From assembly GCA_020444545.1 (NCBI GenBank), contig JAHLKT010000008.1, positions 124,001 through 188,000 of the forward strand: a stretch of 64,000 nucleotides of DNA, written 5' to 3'. Position 1 is the first letter of the stretch. The number at the start of each line of letters is the position of its first letter. This DNA is from Desulfarculaceae bacterium (GTDB lineage: Bacteria > Desulfobacterota > Desulfarculia > Desulfarculales > Desulfarculaceae). Both the position numbers and the translations under genes were made by a program. The notes beneath the pieces are model-generated. The model searched no databases, was not told where the DNA came from, and saw only the letters and a program-made list of their open reading frames with translations. Shown here piece after piece: positions 50,860 to 62,227 of the stretch.

Positions 50860-52041
50860 TTAGCGCAGCGTCACGCCGCTACCGCGGGCGCGCCAACGCA
50901 GCAGGGTCTTCTCGATGAACTCGCCGTCCGGCCCGGCCACGCCCGCGGGGCGAGGCTCGCCGTACTCGAGATCCTTCTTCTTCTTGCGGCGGCGGGGAGG
51001 ACGCGCCTCTTTGGGCTCGGCCTTGACCGCCGGCTTGACCTCGATGGTCTCCTGCTCGGGCTCGGGCTCGGGCTCGGGGGCCGCCTCGGGCTCGGCCGCG
51101 CCGCCCTGCTCCTTCTCATAGGCCTCGGCGAACTCTTCCATACTCTCGGGAGAGGAGCCGCCTTCGATCTGGAACCAGGAGTCGGAGTAGAGGATCTTGC
51201 CCAGGATGGCCAGGGCGCCAGCCACGTAGGTGCGGCCGATGCCGGGGTCAACCTCGCCAGGATCGTTGATCAGGCCGTCCATGACGCCGTGCACGATCTC
51301 CACCAGGTTCTGGTGGTGGCCCTGGGCGATCTGCATGATCAGCTTGTCCTCGTAGTCCACGATGGAGCTGGTCATGCCGTTGCGCTCCATCATGATCATG
51401 AAGATCTGGTTCAGGGGCTCGCGCCAGGGGGTGCCGTTAGAGATGTTGGACAGGCCGTTGGTGCTCTCGGCGCCGGGGCAGATGTCCTGGAGCATGGACA
51501 GGAACTCGAGGTTGTTCATCAACTGCTCCTGCTGAATGTTCAGCGGAGTCACGATGGGGTCGACGAACAGTTTCTCGTTGGGAATGCCCAGCTCGTTGGC
51601 CGCGTAGCACAGCTCCACGCACAGGGCGGAGCGCTCGTTGGCGTCGCGCGGCAGACCGTCGGGGCCCCACAGCAGGGCCACGGCCTCGGCCTCGTACTTG
51701 GCCACGATGGGCCACATCACGGTGTAGCGCTCGGGGCGGGCCATGACCGAGTTCACCAGGGCGGTGCCCTTGTGCACTTCCAGGCCGGCCTCGATGGCCT
51801 CGATGTTGGAGGTGTCCAGGGCCAGGGGCACGTCGGGCACCACTTCCTGGACGGTCTGGACCACCCACTGCATCAGCTCGGGACCGCCCTTGCGGGCCGG
51901 GCCCAGGTTGATGTCGATATAGGTGACCCCGGCGGCCTTCTCGGCCAGGGCCAACTTCTGAATGGGCTCGGGGTTGCGGTCTTTGAAGGCCTGCCCGCAC
52001 TCTTTCTTAATAACGTTTAGGTTTTCACCTATGGTCTTCAT
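50860..52041 (-). CDS. acsE: Methyl-H4folate:corrinoid protein methyltransferase with C-terminal extension
   Basis: A 393-residue protein. Residues 1-262 are AcsE (pterin-binding TIM barrel; TYIDINLGPARKG, PLALDTSNIEAIEAG, NSVMARPERYTVMWPIVAKYEAE), which moves the methyl group between methyl-tetrahydrofolate and the corrinoid Fe-S protein. Normal AcsE ends near 262. Here a helix, a Glu/Pro stretch (EAAPEPEPEPEQET) and a basic stretch (RPPRRRKKKK) follow, and then a 35-residue tail (359-393) that starts EYGEPRPAGVAGPD and ends RGSGVTLR. The same tail ends AcsD. It is the last gene of the operon. Confidence 0.95.
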   Translation of the reverse strand: MKTIGENLNVIKKECGQAFKDRNPEPIQKLALAEKAAGVTYIDINLGPARKGGPELMQWVVQTVQEVVPDVPLALDTSNIEAIEAGLEVHKGTALVNSVMARPERYTVMWPIVAKYEAEAVALLWGPDGLPRDANERSALCVELCYAANELGIPNEKLFVDPIVTPLNIQQEQLMNNLEFLSMLQDICPGAESTNGLSNISNGTPWREPLNQIFMIMMERNGMTSSIVDYEDKLIMQIAQGHHQNLVEIVHGVMDGLINDPGEVDPGIGRTYVAGALAILGKILYSDSWFQIEGGSSPESMEEFAEAYEKEQGGAAEPEAAPEPEPEPEQETIEVKPAVKAEPKEARPPRRRKKKKDLEYGEPRPAGVAGPDGEFIEKTLLRWRARGSGVTLR

Positions 52042-52076
52042 GGGTTCCCCTCTTCAATCCACCAAGGAAAAGGCGC

Positions 52077-53420
52077 CTACTTGTCCGGCGTCCACTCCTT
52101 GAGGAATTTGGTCAAGTGCGCTGCCTCGCGGGGGCCCACCTGGATGTTCCAACCGGGCAGCTCCTCCTCCACGTCGCCGGCGATGGCCGCGGCGTAGCCG
52201 GGGATCACCAGGGACTTGTGTCCGATCTTCTCCTCGACCCCGATCTTCTTCACGAACATGCCCACATCGTCGCCGGAGAACTTGCCGGCGGCCCAGGCGG
52301 TCATGACGCTCAGACCCTCGGTGTCCTTGATCAGCAGCCAGGCCGGGACGCGAGAGCCCTCGATTTCGCCGCTGACGATGAAGTAGGTGAGCGAGAAGTT
52401 GGTGGTGATGAGCAGGGGGCTGTCGGCGTTGGGGCCGCCGATCTCGTAGATGCCCTCGGTCACGGTCATGGGGCGCTGGGGGTCGGTGTAGATGTTCAGG
52501 CGCTCCAGCAAGAGCGGGAACACCGCTTCGGCGGTCAGGTCGTCCAGCACGATGATGGCGGCGTACTTGGCCACCATCATGGCCGCCGCGGCCACCTGCT
52601 CGTCCAGGGTCTCGCCCAGGGCGTTGGCAAAGCAGATGGTGGGGAAGCCCAGGGTGCGGTTCTGCTGCAGCAGGGCCGCGCGCCGGATGGCGATCTGATC
52701 CTGGAACACGCCGGCCAGGTCGCGGGCGCCGCTGTCGATCACCAGGTCCTTGTGCCCGGCATCGGTCAGCTCGTCGCTGAGCTCCATGGCCTCGTCGATG
52801 TCAACCGCCTTGATGGCCAGGGGCAGGGCGTTTTCGCCCGCGATGGCGCTCATCTTGTCGGCGTTGGCGCCGGTGGCGGCGTAGAGCAGGGGTTTTTTGT
52901 CCTTGAAGGCGGCGGCCACGGGAGCCATCACCTCGGGGTCCTCGCAGGCCAGGATCAGCGACAGGTCGCTGTTGTCCACCACGGCCTGGGCCGCAGCCTG
53001 GAACTTGCCGGCGTCGCCGCTGGTGCACTCCAGGAAGACCAGCTCGGGGCGCAGGTTGAGGCCCACGCGCTCCCACTGGAAGCCCGCCCAGGCCTTCACC
53101 TTGGCGGCGATGTCGTCTTCGTCGGTGAGGCGGCCGGCGATGCCCGGAGGGTTGAAGAAGGTTTTTTCGTGACGGAACAAGACCGTCTCGCCGCCGATCT
53201 TTACCGCCGTGTCGCCAGTACCCACGGTCAGCGGCCGGATCGGGGGCGCGCTGGCCTCGGCCAACTGCTCACGCGCCTCTTCGGACACGTAGGGGCAGGC
53301 GTCCAACTCGGCCTTGCCCGCCGCCAAGTTCATGGCGAAGGCGAGGCAGGTGGGAACCCCGCACTCCCCGCAGTTGGTTTTGGGGAGAAGTTTGAAAATC
53401 TGAATGCCGGTTAGGGCCAT
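52077..53420 (-). CDS. acsC: Corrinoid iron-sulfur protein, large (gamma) subunit
   Basis: A 447-residue subunit of CFeSP, which carries the methyl group on cobamide to acetyl-CoA synthase. The N-terminal [4Fe-4S] motif is TNCGECGVPTCLAFAMNLA with a fourth Cys in DACPYVS. The middle is a TIM barrel, and the C-terminal part (residues 325-447) binds the cobamide. Length is that of the Moorella protein. Unlike its partners AcsD and AcsE it ends normally (KEWTPDK) without the extra tail. Confidence 0.95.
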   Translation of the reverse strand: MALTGIQIFKLLPKTNCGECGVPTCLAFAMNLAAGKAELDACPYVSEEAREQLAEASAPPIRPLTVGTGDTAVKIGGETVLFRHEKTFFNPPGIAGRLTDEDDIAAKVKAWAGFQWERVGLNLRPELVFLECTSGDAGKFQAAAQAVVDNSDLSLILACEDPEVMAPVAAAFKDKKPLLYAATGANADKMSAIAGENALPLAIKAVDIDEAMELSDELTDAGHKDLVIDSGARDLAGVFQDQIAIRRAALLQQNRTLGFPTICFANALGETLDEQVAAAAMMVAKYAAIIVLDDLTAEAVFPLLLERLNIYTDPQRPMTVTEGIYEIGGPNADSPLLITTNFSLTYFIVSGEIEGSRVPAWLLIKDTEGLSVMTAWAAGKFSGDDVGMFVKKIGVEEKIGHKSLVIPGYAAAIAGDVEEELPGWNIQVGPREAAHLTKFLKEWTPDK

Positions 53421-53469
53421 GGTTCACTCCTTCCCGAAGGAGCCCGCTTTTTTGCCAAGCGGCCTGGGT

Positions 53470-53497
53470 CACGGGGGCTCCCTGGGGAGCCCCCGTG
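53470..53497. promoter_or_regulatory. Perfect 12-bp hairpin between acsB and acsC
   Basis: CACGGGGGCTCC and GGAGCCCCCGTG around CTGG. It has no U tract in either direction. Between two co-transcribed genes it probably acts as an mRNA processing or stability element, setting different levels of AcsB and AcsC; this is inference. Confidence 0.7.
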
Positions 53498-53513
53498 TCG
53501 GGTTAGCTAGAAT

Positions 53514-55760
53514 TTAGCCGGTGATGGGGTCCATCTCCATGGCGGGGTGACCCACCTTTTGGAGATGCTCCAGAACCGTAGCCTCGTCGATGCCCACCGT
53601 CTCATCGGCAATCTTGTCGATCAGATCCGGCACGCCCATCTCCTCGCCGCGGCGCTTGAGGCCCTCGGCCAGCTCGTCCTTGAGGCTCTTGGGCATCCAC
53701 ACCATCCGCAAGAGGCCGCCGTCGCCGGCCACGTACTTGCGCTGGACGATGTTGTACTTGGAGTGGCCCACGAAGCCCGGGCTGCTCTGGCCGCCGCCCA
53801 TGACGCCGGCCAGGGTGGTGAACTTCATGCCGCAGGGGGTCTCACCGGTGTAGTCGCGGTGCACGGTCATGATGCCGTTGCAGGCGGGCAGCACCGCGGC
53901 GATGCACTCGCAGCAACCGCAGGTGGTCATGGGCTCGTTGATGATGCTGTAGAAGTTGTAGCTTTCCACCGCGCCACGGGACGCCTTGGAGACGAACTCG
54001 TTGACGCCCTTCCAGTTACCCAGCACCGGGTCCGTGCACTCGCCCTTTTCGATGGGCTGGTTGGGACCGGTGGGGTTGATCTCGAAGGAAGCCTTGCAGT
54101 CGAACCAGTTGTAAGCGCCGCACAGGCCGGTACGCTCGGGGCTGACCACGCAGACGTGGGTGGGGGCGAAGGACTGGCACAGGGTGCAGGAGTAGTAGGT
54201 CTCCACGCCCTCGTCGGTCATGTTCTCCACGCGCTCGTCACGCGACTTGTAGGCCGCGCGCGCCTTCTTGGTGAACTCGTCGACGTCCTTGGTTTCGGTC
54301 AGGACGGTCACCTCGACCTTGTCCAGGATGGACCCGAAGTCCTTGTGGAACATGTCGTGGATGATCTGGCCGACGTGCTTGAGCTCGAAGCCCTTTTCCA
54401 CCGCCGGACGGCCCAGGCGCACCCAGGAGATGTCGCGCTGTCCGATGTGCATTACGCCCTGGGCGTAGTTGATCAGGTGGTGAATCTGGCGCTCCAGGAT
54501 GGGCTCGAAGTCGCTCTGCATCTTGCGCCCGGCCACCTTGACCGAGATGCCCATGGGCAGGCGGCCGCCCTCGTCACCCAGGTCCTTGATGTCCTTGCCG
54601 ACCACGGTGATCTTGCCGTCTTCGATCTCGTCCATCTCGGCCATTTCGACCAGCTCGGTCATCTGGGTCTTGCCGCCGCCGAACTCCACGAACAGGTCAT
54701 CCTTGCGGATGCGCTCGCCCTCGAAGGCCGCGCCGTAGCTGAGCGGGATGTCCACCTTGGTGATGACGGTCTTGAGGCCGCGCACCTCCACCGACTTCTG
54801 CACCATCTCGTGGTGCCCCACGTTGGCCACCACGTGCTCGTAGGTGCACACGCCGGTGGGCAGGATCTCGGGGATGTCGGTGTCGGAGATGGTGGGGAAG
54901 CCCCAGTTCACGCAGCCGGCCGCGTTGGCCGCCCACTCCGCGTTCACCTCGCCCAGGGCGTTGACGAACGCGAAGACGCGGTCCTTGTTGTAAGCCAGGA
55001 TGCGGCGGTAGTCACCGGGGGTGACGCCACCGAAGGCCATGGCCGCGCGGTTGGCGAAGCCAAGCGCGAAGACCGCGGCGCTGATGTCGGGCCCGAAGGG
55101 CACCAAGCGGGTGCCCCAGCCCACCTGCACGTCAGCTTCACAGAGCTGCTCGGTGACGGTGGTGCCGTTCTGGTTGGCGGCCATGAACACGTACAGGTTC
55201 CGGCGCTGGTACTCCTCGCAGATCTCCTTGGCGATCTCCTTTTTGGGAGCCGAGCCAACGATGGCCGCGAAGCCGGGAGCCGAGCCGTCCACGAATTCCA
55301 CGCCGCGTTTACGCATGATGGTGTCGTCGGCCGCGCCGAGCCAGATCTTGCTCTTGGCCCAGTCCACCTTGCCCTCGGCGTCCTTGACCACTTCGCAGTC
55401 CTCGCCCGGAGTGTAGAATTCCGGGTCGTCGACGTAGCGGATGGCCTCGGCGATTTCCTCGGCGAACAGGGTCGCCATGCCGGCGTCCAGCAAGGGTCCG
55501 AGGTAGGGAAGGTGGGTGGCCCGCTGCACGTGGGCGGGCAGCAGCTGACGGGCAATTTCCAAAGGCCGCTTGGCGCTGCCCAGGTCCTTAACCGGGATGC
55601 CCAGCAAGGAATAGATGATGGGCAGGTAGTAAGCGGTGTTGGGGAACTCGAGCTTTTGCTCGGGGCCGTATTGCTCCAGGGCACGCTCGTAGAGACCCTC
55701 CACCTTGGCCACGATATTGTACGCACCTTGGATGGCGGCGAATGCTACTAGTTTGGACAT
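53514..55760 (-). CDS. acsB: Acetyl-CoA synthase (CODH/ACS), catalytic subunit
   Basis: A 748-residue enzyme that joins a methyl group, CO and CoA, or splits acetyl-CoA in the oxidative direction. A-cluster ligands are visible: CTLCQSFAPTHVC followed by RTGLCGAYNWFDC, and the nickel-bridging MTTCGCCECI (C-G-C). The N-terminal domain (about 1-310) holds the CODH contact. Length is typical of the bacterial monomeric ACS. It follows acsA by 31 bases and has a GGGGACAATAAG spacer with weak ribosome site. Confidence 0.97.
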   Translation of the reverse strand: MSKLVAFAAIQGAYNIVAKVEGLYERALEQYGPEQKLEFPNTAYYLPIIYSLLGIPVKDLGSAKRPLEIARQLLPAHVQRATHLPYLGPLLDAGMATLFAEEIAEAIRYVDDPEFYTPGEDCEVVKDAEGKVDWAKSKIWLGAADDTIMRKRGVEFVDGSAPGFAAIVGSAPKKEIAKEICEEYQRRNLYVFMAANQNGTTVTEQLCEADVQVGWGTRLVPFGPDISAAVFALGFANRAAMAFGGVTPGDYRRILAYNKDRVFAFVNALGEVNAEWAANAAGCVNWGFPTISDTDIPEILPTGVCTYEHVVANVGHHEMVQKSVEVRGLKTVITKVDIPLSYGAAFEGERIRKDDLFVEFGGGKTQMTELVEMAEMDEIEDGKITVVGKDIKDLGDEGGRLPMGISVKVAGRKMQSDFEPILERQIHHLINYAQGVMHIGQRDISWVRLGRPAVEKGFELKHVGQIIHDMFHKDFGSILDKVEVTVLTETKDVDEFTKKARAAYKSRDERVENMTDEGVETYYSCTLCQSFAPTHVCVVSPERTGLCGAYNWFDCKASFEINPTGPNQPIEKGECTDPVLGNWKGVNEFVSKASRGAVESYNFYSIINEPMTTCGCCECIAAVLPACNGIMTVHRDYTGETPCGMKFTTLAGVMGGGQSSPGFVGHSKYNIVQRKYVAGDGGLLRMVWMPKSLKDELAEGLKRRGEEMGVPDLIDKIADETVGIDEATVLEHLQKVGHPAMEMDPITG

Positions 55761-55790
55761 TTCTTATTGTCCCCTTTCTCCCTGACGGGC

Positions 55791-57842
55791 CTACGCCGCG
55801 TCCAGCTTCTGCCGGTCGGCCATATCCATCAGCACGCGCTCCTTCTTCTTGTCCAGGCCCAGGGCGGCGCGCTTCTTGTCAATGTGGGCGATCATCTTCT
55901 TGGCGTGCTCGTAGGGATCCACTTCCAGGTCCCACATGCCGCCGTAGATACCCTCCAGCTCCTCGAACAGGTGCTTTTGGAAGCGCGGCGCGCCGGTGAC
56001 CGGCAGGCCCACGCCGAAGATGGTGTAGACGCCGCTGGCCACGAAGTAGTGACCGATGCTGATCGCCTTCTCGCTCATCCACTCGGGGGCGGAGCCGGCC
56101 GCGGGCAGGTCGCTGATGTCCTTACCCAGGCCGCCGGCCTTGACCACCTCGGAAGCGGCGGTGAGGATGCGGCTGTTGTCCACGCAGGAGCCCATGTGCA
56201 GCACCGGCGGGATGCCCACCGTCTCGCAGACCTCGGCCAAGCCGGAGCCGCAGTAGACCCCAGCCGACTCGGGAGTCAGCAGGCCGGCCTTGCCGCAGGC
56301 CATGGCGTTACAGCCGGTGGTCAGCACGATGACGTCGTTCTTGAGCAGCTCCTTGACGACGATCAGGTGGGAGCTGTCATGGCAGGTGCGGGCGTTGTTG
56401 CAGCCCACCACGCCGGCGATGCCCCGGATGCGGCCGTTGATGATGTTGTCGTTCAGGGGGACATAGGAACCGCGGAAGGTGCCGCCCAGGTGGTACTTGA
56501 TCGCCTCGTCGGAGAAGCCCACAACCATCTTTTCCTTGGCGGAGGGGATCATGGCCTCGGCCTTGCGGTTGGGATAGTTGTCGATGGCGGTCTTGACGAT
56601 CTGCTTGGCGTCTTCCAGGGCGTGGTGCTCGTCGAACTCGATGTGCACCGTGTGACCCGACTCCATCATGGCGCGCGGGTTGGTGGTGATCACCTTGGTG
56701 TGGTAGCAGTCGGCGACGTTGGCGATGTTCTCCATGATGCACTGCACGTCCACCACCATGGCGTCCACCGCGCCGGTCACGATGGCCAGCTCCTGCTGCA
56801 GGTAGTTACCCGCGATGGGCAGGCCGTGGCGCACCAGGATCTCGTTGGCGGTGCAGCACATGCCGGCCAGGGTGATGCCGTGGGCGCCCTTGGACTCGGC
56901 ATACTTGAGCAGCTCCGGGTCCTGGGAGGCCACCACGATCATCTCGGAGAGCAGCGGCTCGTGGCCGTGCACGATGATGTTGACGTTCTCCTCCTTGAGC
57001 ACGCCCAGGTTGATCTCACCCTGGATGGGGTAAGGCGTGCCGAACATGATGTCCTGGAGGTCGGTGGCGATCATGGAGCCGGCCCAGCCGTCGCCCAGGG
57101 CGGCGCGCGAGCACTGCTTCACGATGTTGTGGTAGTCCTGGTCCACGCCCATGTGGGTGCGGTGCATGATCTCCACGATCTCGCGGTCGATGCCGCGGGG
57201 GACCACGTCCAGCTCTTTCCACAGCTCATAACGGGCTTCGGGGGCGCGCTTGGCATAGGCGATCTCGCCGTCCTGCTGTCCCCACTGGCCCAGGGCCTTG
57301 ATGCCCACGTCCTCGGCGATGTCGTAGATGTCGCGGTCCTGCTGGACCTTCTCGCCATCCTCGTTCTCCACCATCACGGTGGTGCCCACGCCGAAGTAGG
57401 GCGCGATCTCCAGAAGCTTTTCCACGTCCTGGATGCCGTAGTCGTCGGTCTGACGGCGGGCGGCGGCCAGGAAGACCTCGGCCACGCCGCGGCCGTGGTC
57501 GCTGTGCGCCGCGGCGCCGGCGGCCACCATGCGCGCGAAGTTGCGGGCGGCGATGGTCTCGGGGGTGGCGCCGCACAGGCCCTTGCGGGTGTCGACGCCC
57601 TCAATGCCCTTCTTGGGCAGAGGCAGGCGGCAGGGGCCCTGCGAGCAATTCTTGCAGCAGGTGCCCTGTTCGCCGATATTGCAGGGTTTCATGGTAACGG
57701 CGCGGTCGAAAATCGTCTCCACGCCATCGGCCTGGGCCTTAATCAGCATCTGGATGCTGGCCGGGTCGACGCTGACTTCCTTAGGGTTGGCCTTCTTTTC
57801 CTTCTTGGCTGCGGCCTTCACCTTGATCTCATCTGCGGACAT
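55791..57842 (-). CDS. acsA: Carbon monoxide dehydrogenase, Ni-Fe catalytic subunit
   Basis: A 683-residue anaerobic CODH. The cluster B/D ligands are in KPCNIGEQGTCCKNCSQGPCRL. Further C-cluster cysteines lie in VGCNNARTCHDSS, VLTTGCNAMACGKAGL and HMGSCVDNSR. It interconverts CO2 and CO and passes CO to AcsB through a tunnel. The ATG at 57842 follows GAGGAGG by 8 bases; a frame to 57893 adds only low-complexity residues. The N-terminal 35 residues are Lys-rich (VKAAAKKEKKANPK), which is longer than in Moorella AcsA. AcsD is upstream in the same operon. Confidence 0.97.
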   Translation of the reverse strand: MSADEIKVKAAAKKEKKANPKEVSVDPASIQMLIKAQADGVETIFDRAVTMKPCNIGEQGTCCKNCSQGPCRLPLPKKGIEGVDTRKGLCGATPETIAARNFARMVAAGAAAHSDHGRGVAEVFLAAARRQTDDYGIQDVEKLLEIAPYFGVGTTVMVENEDGEKVQQDRDIYDIAEDVGIKALGQWGQQDGEIAYAKRAPEARYELWKELDVVPRGIDREIVEIMHRTHMGVDQDYHNIVKQCSRAALGDGWAGSMIATDLQDIMFGTPYPIQGEINLGVLKEENVNIIVHGHEPLLSEMIVVASQDPELLKYAESKGAHGITLAGMCCTANEILVRHGLPIAGNYLQQELAIVTGAVDAMVVDVQCIMENIANVADCYHTKVITTNPRAMMESGHTVHIEFDEHHALEDAKQIVKTAIDNYPNRKAEAMIPSAKEKMVVGFSDEAIKYHLGGTFRGSYVPLNDNIINGRIRGIAGVVGCNNARTCHDSSHLIVVKELLKNDVIVLTTGCNAMACGKAGLLTPESAGVYCGSGLAEVCETVGIPPVLHMGSCVDNSRILTAASEVVKAGGLGKDISDLPAAGSAPEWMSEKAISIGHYFVASGVYTIFGVGLPVTGAPRFQKHLFEELEGIYGGMWDLEVDPYEHAKKMIAHIDKKRAALGLDKKKERVLMDMADRQKLDAA

Positions 57843-57990
57843 TAGAGGTTCCTCCTCTTCTTTCTCTAAGGGTTGGCTTACGCCCCCTCTCAATAGAACC
57901 TGTCCTTTTTTTGTTGAGCACCGACCCTCCCAGTTGCCGGCGCTTTTATATATGTCAAGAGCCGGGCGGGCGGGCCGCCCAGCTACGTTA

Positions 57991-59547
57991 TTAGCGCAGG
58001 GTCACCCCGCTGCCGCGCAGGCGCCAACGGGAGAGGGTCTTCTCGATGTAGACGGCGTCCGGGCCGGCCACGCCGGCGGGCCGGGGCTCGCCATACTCGA
58101 TGTCCTCGTCTTCATCGTACTCGTCGAGGTCCAAAACATGGGCCATGCGCTCCTCGCGCCGCTTGGCGCGCAGGGCTTGCAGCTCGGCAAGCTCGGCCTC
58201 CTTGGCCGCGGCGCGCTCGGCCTCGGCCGCGGCCGCCTTGGCCAGCTCTGCCGCCTTGGCTTCCTCGGCTGCCTTCTTGGCAGCCTCGGCCTCGGCCTTC
58301 TTGGCCGTCTCGGCGTCGGCCTTGCTCTTGGCTGCCGCCTCGGCCTTGGCCTTGGCGTCGGCTTCGGCGTCGGCCGCCGGAGCGGGCTTGGCCTCGGCCG
58401 CCGGAGCGGCGGGGGCCGCAGCCGGAGCAGCGGGGGCCGGCTTGGGCGCGGCCGGCTTGGCCGCCGGCTTGGCCGCCGGCTTGGGCGCGGCCGGAGCGGC
58501 GGCGGGCTTGGGCGCGGCCGCCTTCTTCTCCTTGGGCTTGGCGCCGGGGATCAGGGCCGCCTTGGGGCGGTCGGTCTTGGCACGCTCGGCCGCCGGGGCG
58601 CGCTCGGCCAGCAGGCCGTCGACGATGCCCTTCATCAGCTTGACCGTCTCGGGGTGCCTGAGCAGCAGGATGTCGGAGCCGGCCAGCAGGCAGGCCACCG
58701 CGGCGGCGGTCTCCATGAGGTAGCCGCGCTTCATGGCGTCGCCCAGCTCGGGCGCTTCCTCGCTGCTCTGCTGGGCCTCCTTGGACTTCCAAACCTCGTT
58801 GCCCACGTTGTTGATCATGGGCAGGATCAGCTTGTCGTCCTCCTGGACCAGGGCGGCGGCGCGGATGCGCTCCATCACCGAGTAGCCGTACTCCATGCCG
58901 TAGCCCAGGCCGCCGGTGGTGGGGTCGATGACCAGCTTGTCCAGGGGCACGCCCAGGTTGCCCAACAGGATGTTGAGCTGCTTGGCCAGGTTCACGTCGA
59001 TGGGGCTGGAGGAGATGAGCGACTGCTGGTAAGCCAGGGCCGCCGCGCCAACCTGCTTGTGGTTGTCCTCGTCCACCGGGCCCAGCAAGAGGTTCTTGCC
59101 GGTGTGATCCTCGGCGATCTTCTTGAGCACCTCGGCGTCCTTGGCCGCGTTGGCGCTGCCCCAAACGATGACCGGCACGTCGACCGCGCCCAGCACCTTG
59201 CCCACGACCTCGGAGGCCGCTTCGGGCGAGGCGTCATCGCCGTTGGGGTCGGTGGATTTCAGCTGCACCACGATGGCGTCGGCGCCGAACTCCTCCACGT
59301 TTTTCTTGGCCCAGGCGGCGGGATCGGCCAGCACGTCCCCAAAGGGGGCCTTGGCCGCCTCGGGCCAATCCACAGGCTCGGTGTCCCACACCTCCATGGC
59401 GATTATGGGCTTGGCCGGCATTTGGCCTTCCCACGTGTGGAAGGGATAACAGGTTTCACCGCCCACGGTGATTGCCTTGTCACCCTTGCCCAGCGTCACC
59501 TTCTCGATGGCGCCGGAATATTTTATGGTTGGTATCTCAAAGGCCAC
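57991..59547 (-). CDS. acsD: Corrinoid iron-sulfur protein, small (delta) subunit, with long C-terminal extension
   Basis: A 518-residue form of CFeSP delta. Residues 1-316 are the usual TIM barrel (GGETCYPFHTWEGQMP, VIVWGSANAAKDAEV, VIDPTTGGLGYGMEYGYSVMERIR). Normal delta proteins end about there (310-323). Then come an Ala/Pro/Lys linker (335-395), a charged Ala-rich helix likely to be a coiled coil (396-465) and an acidic strip (DEYDEDED). The final 35 residues start EYGEPRPAGVAGPD and end RGSGVTLR, 30 of 35 identical to the end of AcsE. GTG start at 59547 with GGAGG 8 bases upstream. It is the first acs gene after cooC. Confidence 0.95.
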   Translation of the reverse strand: MAFEIPTIKYSGAIEKVTLGKGDKAITVGGETCYPFHTWEGQMPAKPIIAMEVWDTEPVDWPEAAKAPFGDVLADPAAWAKKNVEEFGADAIVVQLKSTDPNGDDASPEAASEVVGKVLGAVDVPVIVWGSANAAKDAEVLKKIAEDHTGKNLLLGPVDEDNHKQVGAAALAYQQSLISSSPIDVNLAKQLNILLGNLGVPLDKLVIDPTTGGLGYGMEYGYSVMERIRAAALVQEDDKLILPMINNVGNEVWKSKEAQQSSEEAPELGDAMKRGYLMETAAAVACLLAGSDILLLRHPETVKLMKGIVDGLLAERAPAAERAKTDRPKAALIPGAKPKEKKAAAPKPAAAPAAPKPAAKPAAKPAAPKPAPAAPAAAPAAPAAEAKPAPAADAEADAKAKAEAAAKSKADAETAKKAEAEAAKKAAEEAKAAELAKAAAAEAERAAAKEAELAELQALRAKRREERMAHVLDLDEYDEDEDIEYGEPRPAGVAGPDAVYIEKTLSRWRLRGSGVTLR

Positions 59548-59573
59548 GGCAACTCCCTCCAACAGCCACGGGG

Positions 59574-59883: not shown

Positions 59884-60630
59884 CTATGCAAGCACCTTGT
59901 CAAAGGCCGCGAAAGCCGCCGCGATGGAGGGGCTGTCGTCCGGCAATTGACTGGTAGGCTGGCCCTTTAGGTCGTATTCGGCCAGCTGGGGATCGTCCGG
60001 AATGACCGCCAGCAAATTAAGGCCCATGTCCTTGGCCGCCTGCAAAAGCTCCTCGGCGGGCTCGCCGCGCACCATGGTGAGCAGCAGATAGGCCTCGCCC
60101 TGGAGCACATTCATTTCCTTGGCCAGCTCGGCCACCCGCTGGGCCGCCTGCAAGGAGCGGCGGCTGGGGTCGCTGATGACCAGGAGCATGTCCACCCGCT
60201 GGGTGGTCACCCGGCTGATGTGCTCCATGCCGGCCTCGTTGTCCACCACCAGGTAGTCGTAGTTGTCGGCCAGCTTGTCCATGCACTCGGTGAGCAGATG
60301 GTTGGCCGCGCAATAGCAGCCCGCGCCCTCGGGACGGCCCATGGCGATGAGGTCGTAGCCCTTGGTCTCGGCCAGGCACTGGTTGACCCGCATCTCGATG
60401 AAAAGATTCTTGGTCATGCCCTCGGACTGGCCCTTTTTCATGTCTTCGCGGGCGTCGCCCAGGGTGCCGTCGAGCTCGAGGCCAAGCACTTCGTTGAAAT
60501 TACTGTTGGAATCGGCGTCGACCGCCAGCACGGGCGACTTGCCGTGCTCCACCAGCCAGCGCACCAAAAACCCGGCGACGGTGGTTTTGCCCACCCCGCC
60601 CTTGCCAGCCACAGCGATCACGTAGGACAA
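59884..60630 (-). CDS. cooC: CODH nickel-insertion ATPase (CooC/AcsF)
   Basis: A 248-residue MinD/NifH-type ATPase. It has the deviant Walker A AGKGGVGKTTVAG, DADSNSNFNEVLG (switch I), the dimer-bridging Cys pair in GAGCYCAANHLL (CxC motif of CooC) and VVDNEAGMEHISR (switch II). It loads nickel into CODH and ACS. Its position ahead of the acs genes fits. The predicted promoter is about 50 bases upstream, in the gap shared with dnaA. Confidence 0.94.
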   Translation of the reverse strand: MSYVIAVAGKGGVGKTTVAGFLVRWLVEHGKSPVLAVDADSNSNFNEVLGLELDGTLGDAREDMKKGQSEGMTKNLFIEMRVNQCLAETKGYDLIAMGRPEGAGCYCAANHLLTECMDKLADNYDYLVVDNEAGMEHISRVTTQRVDMLLVISDPSRRSLQAAQRVAELAKEMNVLQGEAYLLLTMVRGEPAEELLQAAKDMGLNLLAVIPDDPQLAEYDLKGQPTSQLPDDSPSIAAAFAAFDKVLA

Positions 60631-60779: not shown

Positions 60780-60904
60780 GGGATATCAACGGCGAAACTC
60801 ACGGCTTGTATAAAGCAGGGCGTCATGGCGCGCGTCCAGTGGGGTGATGCGTTCGGGTCCGCTAGTCGTTGTTTAATAACATATTGATTTTTAAAGAGGT
60901 TATT

Positions 60905-62227
60905 TTGCCGGATCACGATTTGTGGCCTGGTGTGGCCAGGCATTTGCGCGCTCAGGTGACGCCCCAAGAGTACGATACCTGGTTCGCTCCGCTCAGCATG
61001 CGTCTGGAAGAGCAGCAGGCGGTATTCACAGTACCCAACCGCTTTTTCGCGGATTGGATCGGCGACCGCTACGGCGCCATTTTGGGCGAGGCCCTGAGCA
61101 TGGTCTCCGGCCAGCCCCTGGAGACCGCCTTTGAGGTGGCCCAGGCCAAGCCCGCCCCCCCCGTGAACAACCAGGCCGCGGCCCCTCCCCAGCCCTCGGG
61201 GCTCAGCCTGAATCCGGCCTATGTTTTCGAATCCTTCGTGGTGGGCCCCTGCAACGAGCTGGCCCACGCGGCCAGCCAGGCCGTGGCCGAAAATCCGGGC
61301 CGCCAGTACAACCCCCTTATGATTTTCGGGGGCTCGGGCCTGGGAAAGACCCACCTGGTGAGCGCGGTGGGCAACTTCATGGCCGGGCACGACGCGGCCA
61401 ACCGGATCCACTACACCAGCTCCGAGGCCTACTCCAACGAGCTGATCCAGGCGGTGCGCTTCGACGGCATCCAGACCTTCCGCGACAAGTACCGCATGGT
61501 CGATTGCCTGGTCATCGAGGACATACAGTTCCTCTCCGGCCGGGAGCGCACCCAGGAGGAGTTTTTCCACACCTTCGAGGCGCTGTTCCAGGCGGGCAAG
61601 CAGATCGTATTGACCAGCGACAAGCTGCCCCGGGACATCCCCGGTCTGGCCGGCCGCCTGCGCACCCGCTTCGAGTGGGGCCTGTTGGCCGACCTGCAAA
61701 CCCCGGACACCGAGACCAAGATCGCCATCCTGCAGCGCAAGGCCGCGGACCGGCACCTGCCCCTGTCGCGCCAAGTGGCATCCTACCTGGCCAAGCAGCC
61801 CGAGAGCTCGGTGCGCATCCTGGAGGGCTACCTCAATCGGCTCATGGCCGTGAGCCAACTGCGGGGCCGCGAGGCGGACCTGGAGCTGGCCCGCCAGGTG
61901 GTGGGGCCCCTGGCCAACGAGCGTCAGGTGAGCGTGGAGGAAGTCTTCCGCGCGGTGGCCGCTCACTACGGGCTCAAGGTCTCGGACCTGAAAAGCGCGC
62001 GCAAGAGCCGCGACATCAGCCGCCCCCGCCAGGTGGCCATGTACCTGGCCCGCCGCCTGACCAACCTCTCCTTCCCGGACATCGGCAAGGCCCTGGGCGG
62101 CAAGGACCACTCCACCGTGGTCAAGGGCGTGCAGCGGGTGGAGAGCCTCATGGCCCAGGACCCGGAGCTTACCGACACGGTGCGCGCGGTGGAAAACGCG
62201 GTGCGCTCGGGGAGACAGAGGGACTAG
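60905..62227 (+). CDS. dnaA: Chromosomal replication initiator protein
   Basis: A 440-residue initiator. TTG start at 60905 with AAAGAGG 5 bases upstream; translation then begins PDHDLWPGVARHLRAQVTPQEYDTWF, the DnaA domain I. Walker A is FGGSGLGKTHLVSAVG, Walker B CLVIEDIQFLSG, and the C-terminal DNA-binding signature is GGKDHSTVVKGVQRVE. Domain II is a short Pro/Ala linker. A longer frame from 60869 has no ribosome site. Typical of dnaA beside an origin. Confidence 0.97.
   Translation: MPDHDLWPGVARHLRAQVTPQEYDTWFAPLSMRLEEQQAVFTVPNRFFADWIGDRYGAILGEALSMVSGQPLETAFEVAQAKPAPPVNNQAAAPPQPSGLSLNPAYVFESFVVGPCNELAHAASQAVAENPGRQYNPLMIFGGSGLGKTHLVSAVGNFMAGHDAANRIHYTSSEAYSNELIQAVRFDGIQTFRDKYRMVDCLVIEDIQFLSGRERTQEEFFHTFEALFQAGKQIVLTSDKLPRDIPGLAGRLRTRFEWGLLADLQTPDTETKIAILQRKAADRHLPLSRQVASYLAKQPESSVRILEGYLNRLMAVSQLRGREADLELARQVVGPLANERQVSVEEVFRAVAAHYGLKVSDLKSARKSRDISRPRQVAMYLARRLTNLSFPDIGKALGGKDHSTVVKGVQRVESLMAQDPELTDTVRAVENAVRSGRQRD

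Follow-up and report, generated by a model that had tools for sequence, protein, structure and literature searches.

Why do two proteins of one acs gene cluster, the small subunit of the corrinoid iron-sulfur protein (CFeSP) and the methyltransferase that loads it, end in nearly the same short peptide? The cluster lies in the window, the 64,000-nucleotide stretch of a Desulfarculaceae genome analysed here (contig JAHLKT010000008.1, positions 124,001 to 188,000). Its gene order is acsD-acsA-acsB-acsC-acsE, with acsE and acsD at opposite ends and cooC upstream. Genomes, loci and families used for comparison are cited by G, L and f numbers.

AcsD and AcsE share a 35-residue terminal module

The genes of the cluster and the two terminal modules are as follows.
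50860..52041 (-): acsE, methyl-H4folate:corrinoid protein methyltransferase, 393 aa, Pterin_bind core
50863..50967 (-): AcsE C-terminal module, 35 residues, EYGEPRPAGVAGPDGEFIEKTLLRWRARGSGVTLR
52077..53420 (-): acsC, CFeSP large subunit, untailed
53514..55760 (-): acsB, acetyl-CoA synthase (ACS), untailed
55791..57893 (-): acsA, CO dehydrogenase (CODH), untailed; with AcsB the putative docking partner
57991..59562 (-): acsD, CFeSP small subunit, 523 aa, CdhD core to about residue 317-318
57994..58098 (-): AcsD C-terminal module, 35 residues, EYGEPRPAGVAGPDAVYIEKTLSRWRLRGSGVTLR
59884..60630 (-): putative cooC-type nickel insertion ATPase; adjoins the acs genes, in relatives too

We take the gene at 59884..60630 to be a cooC-type ATPase from its Walker A motif. 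A DnaA-like gene at 60869-62227 (+) adjoins the cluster on the opposite strand.

The preliminary description had reported a shared tail on AcsD and AcsE, and our analysis bore this out: 30 of the 35 residues were identical, and the rest of the genome contained no copy. At the DNA level, 89 of 108 bases were identical (stop codon included), and the differences were mostly synonymous. We carried out the genome search that the same description had called for, using the AcsD tail as the query against all six frames of the genome (4.38 Mb, scored 100% complete). Apart from its own source (E 1.3e-19), the query matched the AcsE tail (E 7.5e-16), and no third tailed protein was found in these six frames. 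Chance is thus far from explaining the likeness of the two tails. The absence of the tail from AcsA, AcsB and AcsC was confirmed.

The tail was also said to extend past the usual ends of both families, and it does: solved AcsD homologues have 309-323 residues and solved AcsE proteins 262-272, with no such parts. The AcsD core matched PF03599 (E 5e-45) and NF003377 (E 7e-181) and had the CdhD fold, with PDB 4djd among its homologues; the AcsE Pterin_bind core resembled 1f6y, 2e7f and 2yci. When the tail and six of the mini-proteins described below were scanned against Pfam and NCBIfam, no significant family and no known binding-domain profile was matched.

The module sits at the end of a long arm

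AcsD does not end near residue 315, as solved structures do; it runs to 523 aa through a disordered linker, a long helix and the tail. We modelled it with AlphaFold using 37 aligned relatives (model md902938ba6b2). The model placed a folded core at residues 1-317, followed by a linker, a single helix, a short acidic gap and the tail helix. The segments between core and tail in AcsD, and the linker of AcsE, are listed below.
58357..58608 (-): AcsD disordered Pro/Ala/Lys-rich linker, about 84 residues (about 318-401), pLDDT about 40
58123..58356 (-): AcsD single long Ala/Lys/Glu-rich helix, 78 residues (model residues 402-479), pLDDT up to 87
50968..51165 (-): AcsE linker, residues about 293-358, acidic/Pro-rich, then Arg/Lys-rich; missing in untailed AcsE

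If straight, the modelled 78-residue helix would be about 115 Angstrom long. In this model of AcsD by itself, the tail was predicted with low confidence as a helix over PDAVYIEKTLSRWRLR (residues 500-515, pLDDT about 45-50), so it is not confidently packed against its own protein. AcsD linkers of ~200 residues with a long helix were conserved. AcsE of untailed relatives ended at about residue 292-300, and that of other genera near residue 295, which puts the end of the structured AcsE core at about 293-300.

The module also exists as a free mini-protein gene

In f4, a family in the same class as the window, acs loci encoding a short AcsD almost always had a mini-protein gene between acsD and acsA, and its product ended in the module. 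We examined 31 mini-proteins from f4, f6 and Desulfarculaceae. They had 33-60 aa and the module at the end; all started with ATG, most behind a good Shine-Dalgarno match. Codon comparison of the type C sequences (see below) gave a mean pS of 0.77 and a mean pN of 0.29, with pN 0.03-0.14 in close pairs. Because pN was far below pS, the mini-protein is under purifying selection.

Where acsD was duplicated, the copy adjoining acsA had the module and the free gene was absent. The module changed between the free and the fused state at least seven times on the AcsA (CODH) tree, and sister genomes differed in this respect: free in G040 and fused in G025, a well-supported pair, with G032/G045 as another example. 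The free mini-protein and the fused tail are thus one element in two physical states.

These states also offer an answer for AcsE. The AcsE-borne module, reached through its linker, was found only in G000, G001 and G002, all of the window's genus, and three further genomes of that genus (G004, G005 and G006) had a free mini-protein gene directly behind acsE. Given this free gene in sister species, the best reading of the AcsE tail is that the mini-protein became fused to AcsE.

Distribution of the module in Desulfobacterota

Three tail types were distinguished. Type A (GVAGPDAxYIxKSLxRWRLRGxG) was the tail of f25 and of the window's own family, Desulfarculaceae; it ended every complete AcsD in those Desulfarculaceae-type and f25 acs loci that also held acsA and acsB. 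The acsA of f25 (L045, L046) nested among Desulfarculaceae on the CODH tree, which suggests that the operon was transferred horizontally. Type B (TPAAxQKSxxDKMLxxLNRIHRRV, in some cases shortened and closing with KKIRR) ended AcsD of the Desulfobacterales/Desulfobulbaceae type. It was surveyed in 80 loci from GTDB genomes, nearly all of that type; complete AcsD carriers had 505-581 aa with the tail at the same C-terminal register, and the exceptions were contig ends, the frameshifted L150 and two loci with a short AcsD, L155 and L164. Tail remnants lay out of frame between the short acsD and acsA in both (L155:1102-1188 and L164 near 11060) and have apparently decayed. Type C (EEVVSNQIIxELDRVHxRTPRY), again at this register of AcsD, was the tail of f4-f6, which belong to the same class as the window.

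Profile comparison with hhalign related type B to type C (E 2e-9) and type A to type C (E 5.6e-4); A against B gave 0.05, not significant alone. The carriers of all three types formed one clade on both the AcsA (CODH) and the AcsB (ACS) tree (SH-aLRT 99 and 100). This makes a single origin of types A, B and C likely. A different conserved AcsD tail, type E (KTxLRYWYxxGYGSEKRKKPA, ending YGSE(K/R)RKKPA), was present in L296 (f39), L297 (f80) and L298 (f74).

The preliminary description had asked whether the tail always occurs on two or more acs proteins. It does not; AcsD usually carries it alone, or no protein does where the mini-protein is free. Two tailed proteins per genome are a peculiarity of the window's family; acs loci elsewhere normally have a single copy. 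When the whole class was searched, each acs locus proved to have one module, and G053 held both free and fused forms. Searching the phylum for type B gave a single module in each genome, in frames that were AcsD-sized or longer except for one cut by a contig end. A 1260-residue frame in that search was really an ordinary 546-aa AcsD. In G008, an AcsD paralogue of ~1060 aa (L037:4776-7982) had four tandem modules ~110 residues apart, at a locus without other acs genes. In G039, neither acsA nor acsB accompanied a tailed AcsD (L106:6216-7859), and the other acs locus of this genome had an untailed AcsD and a free mini-protein.

Within genomes, the AcsD tail and the second-copy tail matched each other above chance (p 0.008, five genera). 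We did not use this as main evidence because it was carried mostly by one genome, G014.

The module accompanies bacterial-type CODH/ACS

Three genomes bear on the partner. G041 had a second locus with the mini-protein, acsA and acsB and without acsD, acsC and acsE. G012 (92% complete) had acsD-acsC-acsE, no ACS genome-wide, and neither tail nor mini-protein. G021 had an archaeal-type ACDS-like cluster (L262:5782-14555) alongside its bacterial-type acs cluster; the archaeal-type cluster encoded a CdhA with an extra Fe-S region, CdhB and an ACS without the N-terminal domain, and its AcsD was untailed. The module thus occurred with bacterial-type acsA-acsB and was absent without them (locus L257, G012 and G021), yet many ACS-bearing families lack it. 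It is bacterial-type CODH/ACS that the module follows, and not CFeSP or the methyltransferase. In many ACS-bearing families of Desulfobacterota, AcsD was short and untailed and no mini-protein was found, a search that very divergent mini-proteins could escape; the module is therefore dispensable for CODH/ACS in general.

AcsD was joined to neighbouring enzymes in other ways as well. Single-frame AcsD-CODH fusions of 1123 and 1150 aa were found in G087 (L289:5315-8683) and G161 (L290:5925-9374). They contained CdhD and Prismane domains and a Pro/Ala-rich linker, AcsD was joined via the same end, and the module was missing. Nine further fusions linked MTHFR through a linker to AcsD (families f33, f69, f70, f82, f84 and f97), some with TPR repeats in the linker.
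L287:5928-8645, L288:7380-10655, L307-L312, L314: MTHFR-AcsD fusion loci
The CODH and MTHFR fusions indicate that tethering of AcsD to its pathway neighbours evolved repeatedly.

We also asked on the trees whether the tail follows the CODH clade; the tail requires four changes on the CODH tree and three on the ACS tree, so CODH was not singled out as the partner. Families f42, f76 and f95 combined a distant CODH with an ACS near the tailed clade and had no tail. A similar combination, with CODH distant (54% identity) and AcsD untailed, was seen in L292, L294, L300 and L302 and suggests CODH replacement. An AlphaFold model of the mini-protein and CODH as one chain (stops read through; a CODH monomer, no ACS, 24 sequences) left the mini-protein unplaced, with pLDDT about 27. 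The model thus did not show docking, but we did not count it against docking because the real target may be the CODH dimer or ACS.

A candidate docking module for CODH/ACS and its alternatives

We favour, with moderate confidence, the reading that the tail is a small docking module for CODH/ACS, whose arm would tether CFeSP and, in the window's genome, also the methyltransferase. The free form, a protein of 33-60 residues, would presumably serve the CODH/ACS core as a small accessory subunit. Fused to AcsD, the module would use the disordered and helical arm to tie CFeSP to CODH/ACS, keeping the methyl carrier near the A-cluster and yet letting it swing freely to the methyltransferase. In the window's lineage, the second copy on AcsE would park the carrier-loading methyltransferase on the same core. 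Since tethering is beyond a mini-protein that is fused to nothing, the element must in addition do something by itself on the core; the four tandem modules on the G008 paralogue fit a modular binding element. The comparisons establish that the module exists and is conserved, that it can be a gene, that it switches between free and fused states and that it accompanies CODH/ACS in genomes. We infer physical docking on CODH/ACS, and with it a docking site, a stoichiometry and a benefit from channelling, from these genomic comparisons.

The preliminary description had proposed a docking peptide that tethers AcsD and AcsE to one another or to a common scaffold, membrane protein or shell. Docking and tethering are favoured by the comparative evidence, namely the mini-protein beside acsA, the locus with mini-protein, acsA and acsB, the absence of the module without ACS, the AcsD-CODH fusions and the lack of shell genes. 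As the partner, this evidence points to the CODH/ACS core and away from a separate scaffold, membrane or shell.

That each CODH/ACS locus has one free mini-protein, even a locus that lacks CFeSP genes, would suit a small regulatory or maturation subunit that, for example, gates the gas channel, stabilizes the CODH-ACS interface or helps to load metal, with attachment to AcsD being mere co-delivery. The conserved AcsD linkers would be superfluous for pure co-delivery, and the direct AcsD-CODH fusions do without the module, so we regard this explanation as unlikely. The near-identical tails on the partner enzymes AcsD and AcsE and the four copies on one G008 protein could instead mean that the module binds itself, the tails of AcsD, AcsE and the mini-protein forming bundles that cluster the enzymes without a receptor on CODH/ACS; free mini-proteins could then serve as linkers. 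Outside Desulfarculaceae, however, there is normally a single copy per locus, the mini-protein occurs with acsA-acsB alone and no second tailed protein in that locus, and the AcsD model gives the tail no confident fold. Self-binding is improbable on these grounds.

An amphipathic helix anchoring CFeSP and the methyltransferase to the membrane is very unlikely. Type B tails of Desulfobacterales are amphipathic and basic, like known membrane-targeting helices, but type C has a net charge of -3, the hydrophobic moment of type A is not above that of shuffled sequences, and the specific residues RVHxR, GPDA and RWxxRG are conserved beyond what amphipathicity would require. A basic amphipathic membrane helix was rejected as a general explanation, as only type B qualifies, with A failing on moment and C on charge. 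Loading into a protein shell (microcompartment or encapsulin), whose cargo is commonly targeted via short conserved terminal peptides behind flexible linkers, can be practically dismissed, because the window's genome, like G006, G009, G010 and G029, gave no BMC or encapsulin family match.

The docking reading can be widened, more tentatively, to a proposal that could easily prove wrong: the mini-proteins may constitute an undescribed family of small CODH/ACS subunits (33-60 residues) that also serves as a transferable docking tag. Whatever enzyme is fused to the tag would be brought to the core, and in this lineage carrier and methyltransferase would both have been recruited in this way into a tethered Wood-Ljungdahl methyl-transfer chain. 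For acetogens, the usual view is of CFeSP as a protein that stands free. The module bears on the way in which the corrinoid protein meets ACS and the methyltransferase and on the cellular organization of bacterial CODH/ACS; together with the AcsD-CODH and MTHFR-AcsD fusions, it suggests tethered pathway assembly in many sulfate reducers and their relatives. It could be used as a tag to trap CFeSP on CODH/ACS for structures and for engineered CO2 fixation, and the mini-protein gene, small, conserved and apparently without annotation in protein-family libraries, is directly testable.

Comparison with known systems

The tail is real and conserved and, as far as the literature searched and the family libraries show, undescribed. 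The earlier statement that no such module was known thus stands for that literature, which contained neither tail nor mini-protein and whose coverage stopped short of subscription papers. NCBIfam NF003377, an AcsD subfamily of 432 positions, covers the core and part of the linker (window AcsD residues 6-420), but its match stops short of the tail, and the free mini-proteins match no family.

A docking peptide on a flexible arm belongs to a known class of mechanism; what is new is its use in this pathway, the free gene and the interchangeable fusions. In E2 of the 2-oxoacid dehydrogenases, a peripheral subunit-binding domain of ~35 residues and Ala/Pro-rich swinging-arm linkers keep the substrate-carrying domain near its partner enzymes. 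The two systems share a short module, flexible Pro/Ala-rich linkers and a carrier held near its partners. In contrast to the E2 domain, the tail, which has no sequence match to it, is a single predicted helix, is C-terminal and can be encoded by a free gene; what it carries is a corrinoid protein.

Closer in pathway is the archaeal ACDS, where a C-terminal extension of ACS, ~75 residues long and unresolved by cryo-EM, has been proposed to assist the swing of ACS from CODH to CFeSP and back (PMC11474084). It is likewise a flexible C-terminal extension thought to serve movement among CODH, ACS and the corrinoid protein; there it is on ACS, whereas here the module is on the CFeSP small subunit, on the methyltransferase or free. 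In Moorella, N- and C-terminal extensions of CODH bind ACS (PMC11474084). Those extensions also hold partners of the CODH/ACS system together, but they are on CODH and bind ACS, and a short AcsD/AcsE module is not described there.
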